The position numbers were made by a program, and so were the translations under genes. From NCBI GenBank assembly GCA_019239445.1, contig JAFAZV010000082.1, forward strand, positions 1-47,975: a stretch of 47,975 nucleotides of DNA. Reading direction: 5' to 3'. The notes below the pieces were generated by a model. The model saw only the letters and a list, made by a program, of their open reading frames with translations. It did not search any database and was not told where the DNA came from. Numbering within the stretch: the first letter of the stretch is position 1; each line of letters opens with the position of its first letter. The stretch comes from Solirubrobacterales bacterium. GTDB taxonomy: Bacteria > Actinomycetota > Thermoleophilia > Solirubrobacterales > Solirubrobacteraceae. Of the stretch, positions 29,020 to 38,084 are shown one piece after another.

Positions 29020-30048
29020 TTAGGCGGTTTCTCCGGTTCCGATCGGCTCTTTCCCCTGAGTCTCGACCCACTGGTTGAGCCGCTGCCACCAGTCATAAAG
29101 CCACTCGGTCTGCCGCTCGGGATCCTTCGGACGCTCCGGGGCCGGCGCCAGCCACATGCGAGTGTGCAGCGTCCGGCCGATCGGCGGGTGGCGCCACATC
29201 TCGCGCGGGAACGCCGCGAGGCCGAGACCAGTGTGAGCGGCGAAGATCACGTCGGTCTCGCCGCTGCCGCGGAAGGCGGCGATCGCCCCCGCCGGGTGCG
29301 GCGGCATCATGTGCGACATCGATTCGCCCGCAGCCGCCTCGCGCCGCCGGCCCTTGCGACGGAGCCGACTCAGCGCCTCTCGCCGGCGCTTCGGCGTGAA
29401 GTTTCCGCCCTCGGGGAACAGGACCAATACGCCGCGCGCGCCCATCTGCGCCGTCACCTTGCGGATTTCGGCCTCGGAGCGCTCGCCGTCGGACGTGTCG
29501 AGAATCGCGTGCGGGAGCCGGTGGCCGATCAGATCGACGCATGGATCGAGAGTCAGCGCCTGCTTGAAGACAATGCTAGGCCGCCGGTCGTACCGCCACA
29601 GCAGCTCGTCGATGAGCAGCAGGGTGTCGGCCGGACCAGCGTGCCGGCTCAGGAAAAGCAGCGGCCGCTCGGCGGCCAGTGCGCGCGCAGCCTCGGCCGT
29701 GGCACCTGGCGCCACCCGGATGTCGAGCAACTCGACCACACGCTGGGCTAGTCCGTGAACGAACCACCGCAGCAACCGGTAGTGCAGGCGCTTGATCCGA
29801 GGCGTGTGCATCGCCGCGCCGAACCCGCTGAGCAACCACAAGCCGGCGCACGCGATGAGCACGCCGAGCTCATAAGCGAAGTACGAGGTGGCCAAGCGCG
29901 CGGCGATCAGCGGCTGCGGCCGGCGGATGACGGCGGCCGCTGCGGCGGCCAGCGCCAGGAGGAGCGGACTCAGCAGGAGCCACAACGCGGACACGACAAC
30001 CCACGCCGTGACCGTGAGCGGGCGCCGAATCGGCGCGGGAGGGATCAT
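29020..30048 (-). CDS. PlsC-like 1-acyl-glycerol-3-phosphate acyltransferase family protein
   Basis: LLFLSRHAGPADTLLLIDELLWRYDRRPSIVFKQALTLDPCVDLIGHRLPH ... MGARGVLVLFPEGGNFTPKRRREAL. Confidence 0.82.
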   Translation of the reverse strand: MIPPAPIRRPLTVTAWVVVSALWLLLSPLLLALAAAAAAVIRRPQPLIAARLATSYFAYELGVLIACAGLWLLSGFGAAMHTPRIKRLHYRLLRWFVHGLAQRVVELLDIRVAPGATAEAARALAAERPLLFLSRHAGPADTLLLIDELLWRYDRRPSIVFKQALTLDPCVDLIGHRLPHAILDTSDGERSEAEIRKVTAQMGARGVLVLFPEGGNFTPKRRREALSRLRRKGRRREAAAGESMSHMMPPHPAGAIAAFRGSGETDVIFAAHTGLGLAAFPREMWRHPPIGRTLHTRMWLAPAPERPKDPERQTEWLYDWWQRLNQWVETQGKEPIGTGETA

Positions 30049-30896
30049 CGCGCCTCCAGATATTGCCGCGAAGCGTCGTAGGCGGCGTCGATCTGGCTTT
30101 GCACCGTGCGCGCGACGCGCCGGCGACGGAGCTGTCCCGAGATGTCGTTGTAGGCAGGCGCGGCCGAACCTCCGGTCGGGAGGACGTGCAATTCGACGCC
30201 CTCCGGCAGGGACTGCAGATCGTGAGCGAAACGATGACGCCGCGCGACTTCGAATGCCACCAGGCCGACCTCCCACGGCCAGCGCGGAGGTTGCAGCGGC
30301 TTCTCGAGTCGGCCTACCTGGAGCACGTAGATGACCGACGCGCCGAGAACGACCGCACGCGCGACCGGAATCGAATTCACGATCCCGCCGTCGATGAAGT
30401 GCTCATCGCCCACTTCGACTGGCGGCAGAATGCCCGGCACCGCGCAGGACGCGAGCACGACGTCCGCCAGCACGCCGCTGTCGAACCAGTGCTCGGCGGC
30501 GCGCTCGATCGAGGCGGCGACGCACTGGAACGGGATCTCGAGATCCTCGACCCGCTCCACGGGTAGTGCGCGCGCGAGTCGTGCCCGGGCCGCCTCGAGC
30601 GACTCCAGGTGGGTGCCGGTGCGTGCGAGCGTCCCCAGCTTGCGCAGCACTCCGGCCGCCGTCACCTCCGAGAGATCGGACTCCTGCCAGAGCTCGGTCA
30701 GCCGCTCGACGCCGAGCAGAGTCGGCTCGGCGGCGTACAGAGCTCCATTTATCGCGCCGACGGACGTGCCGAGAATCATGTCGGGCCGGATAGCACAGTG
30801 CGCCAACGCACGCAGCATGCCGACCTCGTGCGCACCGAGAACCCCGCCGCCTCCCAGCACGAACGCGACCCGGCCGGAACCATCCGTGTCTCGCAT
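30045..30896 (-). CDS. Patatin-like phospholipase family protein
   Basis: VAFVLGGGGVLGAHEVGMLRALAHCAIRPDMILGTSVGAINGALYAAEP (GXSXG) and HFIDGGIVNSIPVARAV (DGG catalytic Asp); overlaps plsC start by 4 bp. Confidence 0.92.
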   Translation of the reverse strand: MRDTDGSGRVAFVLGGGGVLGAHEVGMLRALAHCAIRPDMILGTSVGAINGALYAAEPTLLGVERLTELWQESDLSEVTAAGVLRKLGTLARTGTHLESLEAARARLARALPVERVEDLEIPFQCVAASIERAAEHWFDSGVLADVVLASCAVPGILPPVEVGDEHFIDGGIVNSIPVARAVVLGASVIYVLQVGRLEKPLQPPRWPWEVGLVAFEVARRHRFAHDLQSLPEGVELHVLPTGGSAAPAYNDISGQLRRRRVARTVQSQIDAAYDASRQYLEAR

Positions 30897-31911: not shown

Positions 31912-32256
31912 GTGGGTGTAGACGACTACATGGACCGTGAGGCTGGCGTGGTCGCGGCGGCTACTGCCGCCGCGGTGTCCCCTCAGGCGCGGGAGCTGTT
32001 CCGCCGCGCCGCGGTATACGGGATTGCCGGAGTGCTGAAGGCCGGGGACGTGGCCGTCGCCGCCGCCCGAGGCGCCGTGCGCGGAGCCAGAGACGGAGTC
32101 GCGGCGGCCTCGAATGGTGCCGGTGAGCAGCCGCAGCCAGCCGCCCCAAGCGCGCCACTCGGCACCTCGGCTCGCGGCGGGCGCCGGCAGCCCTCCAGCT
32201 CAGGGACGCAGCGCCGAGCTCGGGAGCCGCAGGGCTCGACCGGCGACGACAGCTGA
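31912..32256 (+). CDS. Small Ala-rich protein preceding the P-type ATPase
   Basis: GTG start with AAGGAGG upstream; VSPQARELFRRAAVYGIAGVLKAGDVAVAAARGAVRGARDGVAAAS plus basic disordered tail. Confidence 0.65.
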   Translation: MGVDDYMDREAGVVAAATAAAVSPQARELFRRAAVYGIAGVLKAGDVAVAAARGAVRGARDGVAAASNGAGEQPQPAAPSAPLGTSARGGRRQPSSSGTQRRAREPQGSTGDDS

Positions 32257-32264
32257 CCTGACGC

Positions 32265-35200
32265 TTGAGCGTCTTCTCGCCTGCGCGCGACGCTCCGCGG
32301 ATCGTCCACTCACTGCCGGGCCGGATCCGAGTCCACGTGCCTCGCTGGCGCGGCGCGGATTTGACCGCCCTGGAGCGGCGGCTCACCTCCGTCACGGGCG
32401 TCCGGCGCGCGCGGGCGAGCGCCCAGACGCAGAACGTTCTGGTCGAATTTGATCCGGATCTCATCGACTCCGATTCGATCCTTGTGGCGATGCGGAAGCT
32501 GCAGCCTGCCGCGCGCGGGGCTCGGCGCGGCGAAGGGTTCAGGCGTCGCCGGGCCGAGGATTCGAGCGGGACCGGTGCCGCGCGCGGAGAATCGGGGACG
32601 GGAAGCGATCAGGCGCCGAGCCCACGCGAGCACCGCGAGCCACACCGGCGCGCTCGCATCGCGGTGCGCGGCATCGATCGCGATCCCGAGCTTGCGCGGC
32701 GCGTGGTCGAGCGCCTTGGTCGCCTGCCGGGCATCTCGCAGGTGAGCGCCAGCCAGCTCACAGGGCGCGTCCTCGTCGAGTACTCCGAGCATCTCCTCGA
32801 CGTCGAAGACCTCCTCGGCCAGGTCTCGAACCTCGAGCTTCCGGAACTCCCGGGGGAGGACACGCCCTCGCACCCGCTTGACCCGGCGCCGCTGATTCAG
32901 AGCACGGCGAGGGTCGTTGGGTCCGCCCTCGGGCTCGGGCTCATTGCCTTGCGCCGGGCAACGTCCGGAACTGACGCGCCCGCTGGGAGCGGTCCCGGCG
33001 CTGGAGTTGCCGGTGCCATCGGGATCATCGAGGGGCTTCCGCCGGTCGAGCGCCGGCTGGAGGATCTGCTCGGGCGCAATGGGGCCCAGCTCGCGCTGAG
33101 CGGCATGACGATTGTCGGCCTGAGCTTCGCCGGGAGCCCGCTCGGTCTCGCGGTCGCAGGCGCCGGCGCACTACGACTGATGACCACCGTCCGTGCCCGA
33201 CGCAACACGTGGCGCCGCTATGAGGAGCGCGTGAGTGGAGCCGAAACGGCCGTTCCGGGCTGCCAGGTCGAAATCGAGCCGGGGGAACGACTGCCGCTTG
33301 CGGGCACTGTGCTGAGCGGCTTCGGGACCGCGATCTCAGCGAGCGGAGAAGTTGTGCAGGCGGCACCGGGCGAACGCCTCGACGCCGGAACGCGACTCTC
33401 GGGTGGTCCGGTGACCGTCGTACTCGAGGCCGAGCCGGCGTTCACACCGGCCCGGCGGCCGACGCCACCGACGCCCACGGTCTACGACCGCTACCTCTCG
33501 GCGCTGCCGCCGATCTCGCTCGCCTACGCCGCGCTGAGCGCCCTGTTGACGAGATCGCCGGCGCGGGCGCTCACCGCGCTGCTGCTGGTGAACCCGAGGG
33601 CGGCGATCATCGGCGCCGAGAGCGCCGACAACGGCGCCGCGGCTCGCGTGCTTCGCCAGGGCGCGACGGTGGTGGGCTCGCGCGAGCGGCGCGCCATCAC
33701 GCGGCCCGATGCTCTGCTCCTCGATTCCCCGCGGGTCGTCGCGAACGGGCTGAGCGTGCATGGGGTAAGCGCCGGCCACCTTGATTACAACGAGGCAGCA
33801 GTCCTGGCGCTCGCCGCTGGGGTGTCTGCGGCGGCCGGATCGCCGTGGGGCCCAATCTTCGAGCGAGAAGACGCCGCCGAGGCGGTTGATGGGACGTTCG
33901 ACGGACGCGGCGCGAGCGCCGAGATCAAAGGCGAGCGCTGGCTGCTGACGCCGGCCCGCCAGCGCCGCGACCCCGCCGAGCGCGCCGCGTGTCATGTGCT
34001 CGAGCTTCGACCGGCGCGTGCGCGGAGCGCCGTCGGGCGGATAGCGCTTGCGCTCGCGCCGGCGCCTGGACTGGATCAGCTGCTCGACACCTGTCGAAGA
34101 CTCGAGGTGCCGGTGGAAGTCCTCGGAGGTGCCGCTCCGGGAGCCGCAGCGCTGCTCAGCGCGCACGACATCCGCGCGATACCCGGCGACGCCCTCGAGC
34201 GGCTGCGCGAGCTGCAGCGCCAGGGCGCGATCGTGTTCATCGTCTCTGATGCCTCTCATGCGGCCGAGGAGTTTGCGGAGTGCGATTTGGCGATCGGTTT
34301 AAGTTCGGGTCGGAGCGGCGCGTTTGCCGCCCGCGCAGACCTGCTCGCGGCCGATCTCTCGAGCGTGGCGGCGATCGTCGAAGCCGGAGCGCGCCGGGAC
34401 CTGGCCGTACGCGACGGCGTCGTCGCCTCGGCGCTGTCGAACCTTGCCGGCGCCGCCTGGGGCCTGGGCGGCCAGCCCCGCTTCGAGCGCGGCTCGCAGG
34501 CGACCTACGTCGCCGCGCTCGCCGCGATCGGCGACGCTTACGTGCGCCTGCGTGGCGGCCGGCGCACCCGGTCCGTAACCGAGCGGCTGTTTGATCCCGA
34601 GCCTGAACGGTTCGGGCGGTTGTCGGTCTCGGAAGCGCTCTCCACGCTCTCCAGTGGCAGGGCTGGTCTCAGCACGGAGGAGGCTGAGCTGAGGCACACG
34701 CCCGATCCCGCGCAGCGCCAGCGGGGCGCCTTGCGCGGTGCGATTCTCGATCAGCTCAGCTCGCCCCTGACCGCGGTTCTCGCTGCGGGCGCGGGCATAT
34801 CGCTGGCCCTCGGGGCGGGAGCGGACACGGCGATGATCGCGGCGGTGATCGGCGTCAACACCCTTGTGGGAGCCTGGCAGGAGCGGCAAGCGGGTCGGGC
34901 CGCGGAGGCGCTGGAGCAAATGAGCGCCCGCACGGCGAACGTGCTGCGCGACGGCCAGGTCGTCACGCTCGACGCGTCTGAATTGGTCCCAGGTGACGTG
35001 ATCACGCTCGCCGCCGGCGATCGCGTGGCGGCCGACGCGCGGCTGATCGAGGCGGAGGAGCTCGAGGTTGACGAGGCGGCGCTGACCGGTGAGTCGATGC
35101 CGGTGGCCAAGTCCGCCGACGGCGGAACGGACGCGACCCGGATCGTCCTTGAAGGCAGCGACGTGACGGTCGGAACCGCGCGCGCAGCCGTGATTGCGGT

Positions 35201-37127
35201 CGGGCGCGGTACGCGCATTGGTGCCACCGCGGCCGCGGTCGCGCTCGAGGAGACAAGGGCGAGCCCGCTCGGCCAAAAGCTTGGGCGGATGTTCGCGCAA
35301 GGGATCCCGGTGATCATCGCCGGCGGACTGCTGGTCACTGCCGCTGGTGTCCTGTGGGGCCGGCCTCTGGTGCCGCAGCTCGCGCTCGGGGCGAGCACGG
35401 CGATCGGCGCGGTGCCGGAGGGCCTGCCGCTGCTCGCCGGTGTCGCGCAAGCAGCGATTGCGCGGCGGCTCGCCTCCAGGAACGCGCTAGTGCGACGGCT
35501 CTCCGCCGTCGAAGCCCTAGGCCGGGTCGACGTCGCCTGCAGCGATAAAACCGGCACCCTGACAGAAGGAAAGCCGGCGCTGACCTACGTTGGCGATGCA
35601 ACCGGCGATGGCCGGCGCCCCGAGCGCTTGAGCGAGCCCCTGCGCTTCGTCCTCGAAGCCGCCGCGCTGGCCAGCCCTCCGGCCGACGCGCCCAGCCTGG
35701 ACTCGCATCCGACCGACGTCGCCGTCGTCGAGGGCGCACGTCTCGCCGGCCTCGATGTGATCGACGCGCCGCCGCGCGACGAGGAGGCGCCGTTTGAGCC
35801 CTCGCGTGGCTTCCATGCCACGCTGACCCGCGGGCAGCTGTTCATCAAGGGCGCGCCCGAGGTGCTCGTGGGGCGCTGTAACCGCATTCGCCGCGAGAAT
35901 CGCGACGAGGAGCTCACCCACGGCGACCGACAGGCCTTGCTCGATACGGCTGAGACCTTGTCGGCGCGCGGACTGAGGATTCTCATGGTGGCGGCCGGCG
36001 CGGGGGATGAGGACGCGGTCGACGATCCACGCGGGCTCACGGCGCTGGGCTTCGTGGGCATCAGCGATCCGCTGCGGCCGGGGGTTCTCGCGGCCGTCAG
36101 CCGGTGCGAGGCGGCCGGCGTGCGCGTGGTGATGCTCACCGGCGATCACCCGGCCACGGCCAGCGCGATCGCGCGAGAGGCCGGCCTCTCGCGCAACGGC
36201 CTCGATCTGCTGACTGGAGACGAGCTCGCGACGCTCGACAATTCGGAGCTCGAACGGCGCCTCGATACCGCACGCGTGGTCGCGCGCATCACCCCGCTCG
36301 ACAAGCTGCGCATCGTCGAGGCCTTGCAGCGCCGCGGCCACGTCGTCGCGATGACCGGAGACGGGGTCAACGACGCTCCCGCCCTTCGGCTGGCAGACGT
36401 CGGCGTGGCGATGGGCCGCAGCGGAACCGACGTGGCGCGGGAGGCGGCTGACGTCGTCCTCGCCGACGACGATTTCGCCACCCTGGTCGAGACGCTGGTC
36501 GAAGGGCGAGGCTTCTGGCACAACATCCGCCGCGCGCTGGGGCTCCTGTTGGGCGGCAACGCAGGCGAACTAGGCCTGATGATCGCGGCGGGCGTGAGCG
36601 GCCTCGCCGCCCCGCTCACAACTCGGCAGGTGCTGGCCGTCAACCTGGTGACGGACGTGCTGCCGGCGCTGTCGGTCGCGGTCCAGCAGCCGGAGCACCG
36701 GAACCTCGCAGCACTGGCGCGCGAGGGAACCGAGGCTCTCGACGCGCCGCTTCGGCGCGGCATCCTCAACCGCGCGGTGGCAACCGCGCTCCCGAGCTTC
36801 GGCGCCTATGCCCTGTCCGCACGCGGTGCCGCGCCCGCGCGCCAGCGAGCGGTCGCGTTCACCAGCATCGTCTCGACGCAGCTTGCGCAGACGCTCGATC
36901 TCGGCTACGCCGAAGGTCGCCTCAGCCCGGAAGTGCTGAGCGCCGTCGGCGGCTCAGCAGCGTTCGTCGGCGCCGCGCTGACCGTCCCGCCGGTGCAGAG
37001 CTTCCTTGGGCTCGCGCCGCCCACGCCGTTCGGCCTGGTGCTGTGCGCCGCCGCCGCACTAGCGTCGGTCGCGATCAGTCGCGCCCTCGGCGCGGGAAAC
37101 GGGAAGTATCGGACCACAGCGACATAA
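32265..37127 (+). CDS. Giant (1620-aa) cation-translocating P-type ATPase with N-terminal HMA-like and degenerate P1B-like regions (CtpI-like)
   Basis: TTG start. Two HMA-like repeats near the N-terminus; EAALTGES, AIGAVPEGLPLLAGVAQAA, DVACSDKTGTLT (Asp codon 35544-35546), MTGDGVNDAPALRLADVGVAMG. Confidence 0.93.
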   Translation: MSVFSPARDAPRIVHSLPGRIRVHVPRWRGADLTALERRLTSVTGVRRARASAQTQNVLVEFDPDLIDSDSILVAMRKLQPAARGARRGEGFRRRRAEDSSGTGAARGESGTGSDQAPSPREHREPHRRARIAVRGIDRDPELARRVVERLGRLPGISQVSASQLTGRVLVEYSEHLLDVEDLLGQVSNLELPELPGEDTPSHPLDPAPLIQSTARVVGSALGLGLIALRRATSGTDAPAGSGPGAGVAGAIGIIEGLPPVERRLEDLLGRNGAQLALSGMTIVGLSFAGSPLGLAVAGAGALRLMTTVRARRNTWRRYEERVSGAETAVPGCQVEIEPGERLPLAGTVLSGFGTAISASGEVVQAAPGERLDAGTRLSGGPVTVVLEAEPAFTPARRPTPPTPTVYDRYLSALPPISLAYAALSALLTRSPARALTALLLVNPRAAIIGAESADNGAAARVLRQGATVVGSRERRAITRPDALLLDSPRVVANGLSVHGVSAGHLDYNEAAVLALAAGVSAAAGSPWGPIFEREDAAEAVDGTFDGRGASAEIKGERWLLTPARQRRDPAERAACHVLELRPARARSAVGRIALALAPAPGLDQLLDTCRRLEVPVEVLGGAAPGAAALLSAHDIRAIPGDALERLRELQRQGAIVFIVSDASHAAEEFAECDLAIGLSSGRSGAFAARADLLAADLSSVAAIVEAGARRDLAVRDGVVASALSNLAGAAWGLGGQPRFERGSQATYVAALAAIGDAYVRLRGGRRTRSVTERLFDPEPERFGRLSVSEALSTLSSGRAGLSTEEAELRHTPDPAQRQRGALRGAILDQLSSPLTAVLAAGAGISLALGAGADTAMIAAVIGVNTLVGAWQERQAGRAAEALEQMSARTANVLRDGQVVTLDASELVPGDVITLAAGDRVAADARLIEAEELEVDEAALTGESMPVAKSADGGTDATRIVLEGSDVTVGTARAAVIAVGRGTRIGATAAAVALEETRASPLGQKLGRMFAQGIPVIIAGGLLVTAAGVLWGRPLVPQLALGASTAIGAVPEGLPLLAGVAQAAIARRLASRNALVRRLSAVEALGRVDVACSDKTGTLTEGKPALTYVGDATGDGRRPERLSEPLRFVLEAAALASPPADAPSLDSHPTDVAVVEGARLAGLDVIDAPPRDEEAPFEPSRGFHATLTRGQLFIKGAPEVLVGRCNRIRRENRDEELTHGDRQALLDTAETLSARGLRILMVAAGAGDEDAVDDPRGLTALGFVGISDPLRPGVLAAVSRCEAAGVRVVMLTGDHPATASAIAREAGLSRNGLDLLTGDELATLDNSELERRLDTARVVARITPLDKLRIVEALQRRGHVVAMTGDGVNDAPALRLADVGVAMGRSGTDVAREAADVVLADDDFATLVETLVEGRGFWHNIRRALGLLLGGNAGELGLMIAAGVSGLAAPLTTRQVLAVNLVTDVLPALSVAVQQPEHRNLAALAREGTEALDAPLRRGILNRAVATALPSFGAYALSARGAAPARQRAVAFTSIVSTQLAQTLDLGYAEGRLSPEVLSAVGGSAAFVGAALTVPPVQSFLGLAPPTPFGLVLCAAAALASVAISRALGAGNGKYRTTAT

Positions 37128-37436: not shown

Positions 37437-38084
37437 TCAGTCAGAGGCTCGGGGCTCCTCGACGCAGTCGGCGTTGACATAGCCCGAGCGGAACGGCCTC
37501 GGCTCACCGGTCTGTTCGTCGTAGGTGTGGCGCCAGACACAGCCGGTGTCGTTTGCCAGCAGATGCACGGAGACGGAGGTTTCCGGCGAGGTCGTGCGTA
37601 CGCGGTGGACGTCGTCGCGCGGCGGTAGCAGCGCGTAGAAGTCACCGGGTTCGAGCGGCCGCCGGCGCAAGACCTCGAGGCCGCCGGTGACCGGCCGGTA
37701 GAACTCCTCATCCTGGTTTCCCCGGTATACGCCGACAAGTCCCCAAGCCAGGTGATCGTGCACCGGCGTCATCGCGCCGCTCGGCACGACGAGGCTGAAC
37801 AGCGATAACGACCGGTCGGCGGCGCGGAACGCGAGCCACTGCCCGATGCCGCCGCCCATGCCGCTCGCGCTCGAGGGCGCCTGGTGCTCGGAAGGGAGCC
37901 AATCCGGATCCGCGAGCAGCTCGGCGAACACGGGGCTGACGAGCTCGCAGGCCTGGCGGGGCGATTCTGCAGCGCGAATGCGCTCGCGCACGGCCGCGAC
38001 GAAGCTGCGCACGCGAGGCGTGTCCAACGCATATTGATCCTCGGCAAGTGGTGGCAGGCTCTGGTGCTCGTCGAAGTCACACAT
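37437..38084 (-). CDS. Cysteine dioxygenase-like (thiol dioxygenase) cupin
   Basis: LFSLVVPSGAMTPVHDHLAWGLVGVYRGNQDEEFYRPV ... EPGDFYALLPPRDDVHRVRTTSPETSVSVHLLANDTGCVWRHTYD. Confidence 0.82.
   Translation of the reverse strand: MCDFDEHQSLPPLAEDQYALDTPRVRSFVAAVRERIRAAESPRQACELVSPVFAELLADPDWLPSEHQAPSSASGMGGGIGQWLAFRAADRSLSLFSLVVPSGAMTPVHDHLAWGLVGVYRGNQDEEFYRPVTGGLEVLRRRPLEPGDFYALLPPRDDVHRVRTTSPETSVSVHLLANDTGCVWRHTYDEQTGEPRPFRSGYVNADCVEEPRASD

Follow-up and report, generated by a model that had tools for sequence, protein, structure and literature searches.

The window analysed here (the whole stretch of 47,975 nucleotides, positions 1-47,975 of the forward strand of contig JAFAZV010000082.1, Solirubrobacterales bacterium assembly GCA_019239445.1) encodes a giant P-type ATPase that almost certainly joins a dead P1B-derived pump to a live P2-type pump in one polypeptide. 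The gene (32265-37127, on the + strand like all features of the window given below unless marked otherwise) is a single unbroken frame of 1620 aa with a TTG start, this choice of start codon being unproven. A pair of HMA_2-like domains, which begin at about residues 12 and 129 (32298-32687), is followed by a pseudo-P1B ATPase with membrane helices and pseudo-A, pseudo-P and pseudo-N domains (residues ~205-765, 32877-34559) and then by the live P2-type pump, delimited by Pfam and a family profile (residues ~777-1616, 34593-37112). In a Pfam search of the giant ORF, the N-terminus matched HMA_2 and residues 786-1604 a P2-type pump, and no family was matched by residues 190-785. We think it probable that the protein is a P2-type exporter, most likely of Ca2+, which carries a complete dead P1B6-like (CtpC-type) pump at its N-terminus as a built-in regulatory or assembly subunit.

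A preliminary description of this DNA had proposed that a CtpI-like giant combines a degenerate P1B-like portion with an intact P2-like one, and family profiles, a confident structural model matching ZntA, CopA and KdpB and the motif-by-motif register all agree with this. Residues 196-792 taken alone matched the NCBIfam models ATPase-IB2_Cd (E 5e-7), ATPase-IB_hvy (E 8e-4) and copper-type (E 0.03). When 13 N-halves were compared with 13 intact P1B pumps using hhalign, the match extended over 566 columns (probability 99.9, E 4.6e-32) with every motif position in register, whereas the N-half aligned more weakly with its own C-half family (E 3e-12, 405 columns), and therefore the N-half is P1B-derived rather than the product of an internal duplication. 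The alternative of a P2 pump duplicated in tandem, with later decay of the first copy, was considered because the two halves are both P-type ATPases and can be aligned (E 3e-12), but these hhalign scores rule it out and, as the N-half also ends after M6 like P1B and is preceded by HMA_2 as in P1B6-like pumps, we regard such an origin as extremely improbable. A profile of 47 N-half sequences matched ATP7B (3e-13), KdpB (5e-12) and LpCopA (7e-12) among PDB sequences, and an AlphaFold2 model of the N-half, for which degenerate N-half sequences were the only input, had a pLDDT of 85.3 and a pTM of 0.86. With this model the top Foldseek match was ZntA (4umw, E 6.5e-21), the matches comprising ZntA in E2P-like states, CopA, ATP7B, a Cd2+ pump and KdpB. 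Profile, model and Foldseek together place a P1B fold (8 TM plus A, P and N domains) in residues 205-765. The pseudo-ATPase had earlier been put at residues 400-800, where the resemblance to P-type ATPases and the loss of their motifs both hold, but this extent is too small, as the unit reaches back to about residue 205, so that the first membrane helices and the pseudo-A-domain belong to it. For residues 350-800, the stretch on which the earlier proposal was to stand or fall, matches to P1B profiles and structures were found.

Among the intact P1B pumps at hand, L026 and L041 scored best, and no others were matched all the way from residue 18 to the end; both have HMA_2, CPC in M4 and HN in M6, and a PacL-like gene precedes L041. 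CPC in M4 with HN in M6 is the signature given for CtpC, a P1B6-like pump (PMC9374683). Judged by sequence, the nearest intact relatives of the dead half are CtpC-like ‘P1B6-like’ pumps with HMA_2. CtpC-type pumps with PacL are like the window's dead half in having HMA_2, in the end-to-end match and in the gene for a small membrane-associated protein directly upstream, whereas they pump metal and possess CPC, DKTGT and GDGxND, all of which the dead half has lost (PMC9374683).

The motif changes in the dead half were counted in 36 full-length relatives and follow one common pattern. In the pseudo-A-domain (33327-33392) TAISASGEVVQAAPGERLDAGT stands in place of the P1B pattern ITGES..PV....V..GT, and the lost TGES has become GRDG-like in the relatives. 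In pseudo-M4 (33579-33605) LLLVNPRAA replaces the metal-binding ACPCAL, the change from ACPC to VNPR being nearly constant (N 35/36, P 30/36, R 33/36). The pseudo-phosphorylation loop (33705-33740) has PDALLLDSPRVV in place of DTVVFDKTGTLT; its LLLDSPRVV, with the Asp codon at 33723-33725, was located by motif scan exactly where it had been described, as were the C-half motifs TGES, PEGLP, DKTGTLT and GDGVND. FDKTGTLT has become LDGPRxLTD, in which the Asp is D in 31/36, E in 3 and H in 2, the Lys of DKTGT is found in 0/36 and Arg occupies the Gly position in 35/36. The pseudo-N-domain (33825-33860) has SAAAGSPWGPIF in place of SEHPLAxAI, with loss of the ATP-binding His, and among the relatives SEHPLA has become AGSPWG with invariant P and W (both 36/36). 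At the P1B hinge position lies a pseudo-hinge (34188-34310, GAIVFIVSDASHAAEEFAECDLAIGLSSG, with VSDASHAAEE at 34242), VGDGxNDAPA having become VSDxAxAAAA with the first hinge Asp kept in 36/36; N-halves likewise lack the TGD Thr and the Lys of the hinge region. TGES, CPC, DKTG and GDGxN occur in no N-half of the window protein or its relatives, and DKTGT, TGES, GDGxND and the nucleotide HP motif were absent from the same N-halves except for one HP-like match (L095). In HAD chemistry the joint loss of such residues, including the DKTGT Lys, TGES, GDGxND and the HP His, abolishes phosphoryl transfer, and we infer that the dead half would neither hydrolyse ATP nor transport metal.

The changes in M4 can be followed into a second subgroup, the giants of ‘CtpH/I type’, a label assigned by size, motifs and phylum to the actinobacterial proteins of 1438-1905 aa that were compared here. 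The M4 metal site (CPC, SPC or TPC) is absent from both, with NPR in the window type and a TPK-like sequence in the CtpH/I type; thus the M4 Pro is retained and the second Cys of Cys-Pro-Cys is basic in both subgroups (Arg and Lys respectively). The Arg or Lys fixed at the former site may take the metal's place as a tethered cation. Residual binding of Mg2+ or phosphate by the N-half is possible, because one HAD-centre Asp never varies and most sequences have Asp at the phospho-Asp position. These retained Asp residues (the first HAD Asp in most sequences, the hinge Asp in all) and an M4 that looks as though a cation were tethered in its old site are what would be expected if the N-half kept a non-canonical activity, either as a sensor of Mg2+, nucleotide or phosphate or with its membrane bundle as a passive or gated metal pathway for the live pump. 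We consider this unlikely, since the HP-motif His, the TGD Thr, the DKTGT Lys and the hinge-region Lys have all been lost and the CtpH/I type is without the hinge Asp and the A-domain as well.

The two HMA-like repeats reported ahead of the pseudo-ATPase were recovered as Pfam HMA_2 (PF19991, E 3e-12) in two stretches, the best at 129-190. Their earlier designation as ‘metal-sensing’ has no basis in the sequence, because Cys-x-x-Cys is missing from the N-terminal HMA-like domains of the window protein and of 35/36 relatives; the HMA_2-like region of the window protein contains no Cys at all.

The fusion of dead and live pumps is conserved across several bacterial phyla. The same N-half is present in relatives from the window's genus, its family and another family of its phylum, and the 58 named loci come from Solirubrobacterales, Conexibacter, Rubrobacteraceae, Ktedonobacteria (Ktedonobacter, Dictyobacter), Thermomicrobiales and other Chloroflexota. 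Further matching records are labelled Armatimonadota, Gemmatimonadota, Planctomycetota, Trueperaceae, Abditibacterium and Chthoniobacterales, and as several of these are metagenome bins the lone outlier taxa could be mis-binned. A plasmid search gave matches solely in Streptomyces and Thermomicrobium. No separate, unfused pseudo-half was found among the loci; the shorter ORFs, checked individually, run into the C-half in another frame, end near a contig end or, in L092, retain part of the C-half. Copies frame-shifted between or within the halves were seen in Conexibacter sp. S30A1 (L078, a complete chromosome) and Ktedonosporobacter rubrisoli (L108), and these are either true pseudogenes or sequencing errors.

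An alignment of 47 N-halves has 26 invariant columns, and the dead half has conserved signatures of its own (NPR, DGPR, SPWG and VSD). Pairwise dN/dS, calculated for seven pairs of which the more distant are near saturation, lay between 0.11 and 0.22 in the N-half and between 0.07 and 0.18 in the C-half. The loss of every catalytic motif, the somewhat faster evolution of the N-half and the complete disappearance of the pseudo-A-domain from the CtpH/I-type group might be taken to indicate a decaying, functionless relic of the fusion that is merely tolerated. This is improbable given that purifying selection was found in 7/7 pairs, that new invariant residues replace the old motifs (the P and W of SPWG and the D of the hinge in every relative, the R of the phosphorylation loop in all but one), that the AlphaFold2 model keeps the full fold and that the fusion has been retained across several phyla. 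The purifying selection and the new invariant residues lead us to regard the N-half as a maintained pseudoenzyme.

The C-half was matched by Pfam E1-E2_ATPase (2e-41) and Cation_ATPase_C (9e-17) and has an intact catalytic set (35085-36383), with TGES at 35085, PEGLP at 35415, DKTGTLT at 35544-35564, TGDH at ~36138 and GDGVND at 36357. TGES, PEGLP, DKTGT, TGDH and GDGxND are invariant in an alignment of 19 C-halves, the fourth residue of GDGxND being V or A. The closest solved protein is LMCA1, the Listeria Ca2+-ATPase (family profile E 1.3e-174, whole length), followed by SPCA1 and SERCA; the C-half aligns with these pumps over the whole length and has catalytic and TM4/TM5/TM6 cation residues in common with them, but none of the three has a second, dead P-type ATPase. 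The cation-site helices (36543-36677) read LLLGGNAGE in TM5 and VNLVTDVLPA in TM6. In the alignment to LMCA1 the TM5 motif GGNxGE (36/36) and the TM6 motif VNLxTD of the pattern VNLxTDxxPA fall at positions which we take to be SERCA N768/E771 and N796/T799/D800, and the C-half has Gln where SERCA site I has its TM8 Glu. As the TM5/TM6 Ca2+-site residues are retained, the live half is most likely a Ca2+ export pump. The P2A equivalog cut-offs of NCBIfam were missed both by the top match of the C-half, TIGR01522 (449.7/798.3 bits), and by TIGR01116 (388.4/703.4 bits). Export of a different cation (Mn2+, Mg2+ or a metal handed over by the pseudo-half) would suit the heavy-metal pump descent of the pseudo-half and the presence among the best matches of SPCA/PMR1-type pumps, which also carry Mn2+ (TIGR01522 as top NCBIfam match, SPCA1 next after LMCA1). 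It seems to us unlikely, in that PEGLP in TM4, N/E in TM5 and N-T-D in TM6 fit SERCA and CtpH is reported to take part in Ca2+ handling (PMC9180918, which cites earlier work), although both points are compatible with Mn2+ too.

The N-half of the CtpH/I type is homologous to that of the window protein (E 2e-32), and its homology extends to P1B pumps (E 1e-15). Giants of this type from the same phylum as the window align with the window protein over nearly its full length, L062 being 32% identical to it over 125-1591, and one matches a Streptomyces plasmid copy. The pseudo-A-domain of ~60 residues is kept in the window type but lost in the CtpH/I type, which also lacks the hinge Asp. It was because the window-type N-half keeps this domain that the P1B ancestry became visible, and on present alignments the window type is the less eroded form, revealing the ancestry of the whole group. 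The FUPA24 family is said to have been defined by Chan et al. (2010) and TCDB. Mycobacterial CtpH and CtpI (FUPA24, TC 3.A.3.24) are, like the window protein, of double length with catalytic motifs confined to the C-half; in print their N-half is described, and not identified further, as an exceptionally long segment that contains two TMS, and topology programs disagree on the number of helices (PMC3573892). According to a 2023 review (PMC10654040), CtpH and CtpI stand isolated and uncharacterised. If the N-half is a complete dead P1B pump, this would account both for the doubled length of these proteins and for their odd predicted topology, and the tuberculosis pumps CtpH and CtpI appear to share this previously unrecognised build of a dead pump joined to a live one. 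In the open-access literature we found no earlier recognition of a P-type pseudoenzyme, and nothing relevant on pseudoenzyme, catalytically inactive or tandem P-type ATPases; the work defining the TCDB group lies outside this scope and priority is to that extent uncertain.

Directly upstream of the giant gene in the window lies small1 (31912-32256, 114 aa, family HMM E 4e-23), which is probably co-transcribed with it. The core of small1 is SPxxRELxRRxxVYGxAGxLKAGD (also written SPRxRxxLRRGxVYGxAGxLxAGD), and that of a second small and likewise unannotated protein, small2, is ERAEELVDR...AREEAEDIWAEAQSIRR. At loci with enough upstream sequence, small1 precedes the giant gene in 46/49 cases and small2 in 41/49, the pair being located there at L066-L123 and L128; no small2 was recognisable in the window. 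In Thermomicrobium roseum DSM 5159 genes for hypothetical proteins of 79 and 155 aa, in this order, precede the ‘HAD-IC family P-type ATPase’. We infer that small1 and small2 are partners of the giant pump, and their conservation upstream makes them two further candidate components. For small1 no Pfam match was obtained up to E 10, and neither protein matched a Pfam family or DUF1490 apart from an E3-binding domain ending some small2 proteins. Kinship with PacL/DUF1490 was rejected on the lack of any such Pfam match and a non-significant hhalign comparison with PacL, although the gene order resembles that of pacL-ctpC; DUF1490 itself gave no match in 14 control genomes. The E3-binding (peripheral subunit-binding) domain is C-terminal in small2 of Rubrobacteraceae (L085:4921-5340, with PF02817 at E 9e-12; L113:517-912; L116:4880-5338). 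This domain normally belongs to the E2 subunits of 2-oxoacid dehydrogenases and is odd for the partner of an ion pump.

As to how the dead and live pumps might work together, we suggest that an HMA_2-P1B6 pump was fused to a P2 pump and that the P1B half then lost its activity. The dead P1B-like membrane bundle would pack alongside the live bundle and the pseudo-A/P/N head would touch the live head, thereby setting pump activity or holding the pump together with the two small upstream proteins, an overall logic like that of a pseudokinase-kinase tandem. KdpB, a P1A pump, works with other membrane subunits in KdpFABC and is also matched by the pseudo-half profile, but KdpB is itself active, whereas in the giant protein the extra unit is inactive and covalently fused. 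For a regulatory role of the dead half we see the chances as about even. Slightly more tentative is the fullest form of the proposal, that no P-type pseudo-ATPase was recognised before this one, in which an entire dead P1B6-like pump would act as built-in regulator of a live Ca2+ pump, conserved from Ktedonobacteria and Thermomicrobiales to mycobacterial CtpH/CtpI, with a basic residue fixed in the old metal site and with small1 and small2 completing an uncharacterised three-gene transport module. The anatomy suggests that pseudoenzyme partners have arisen among P-type pumps as they have among kinases, and the division into dead and live halves gives clear constructs.

Two other features were noted near the giant gene. 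A 215-aa protein encoded at 37437-38084 (- strand) looks cupin/cysteine-dioxygenase-like, with no Pfam match up to E 1. At 29020-30896 (- strand) a patatin-like phospholipase gene (PF01734) overlaps an acyltransferase-like gene (PF01553), and the two are probably a lipid-remodelling pair.
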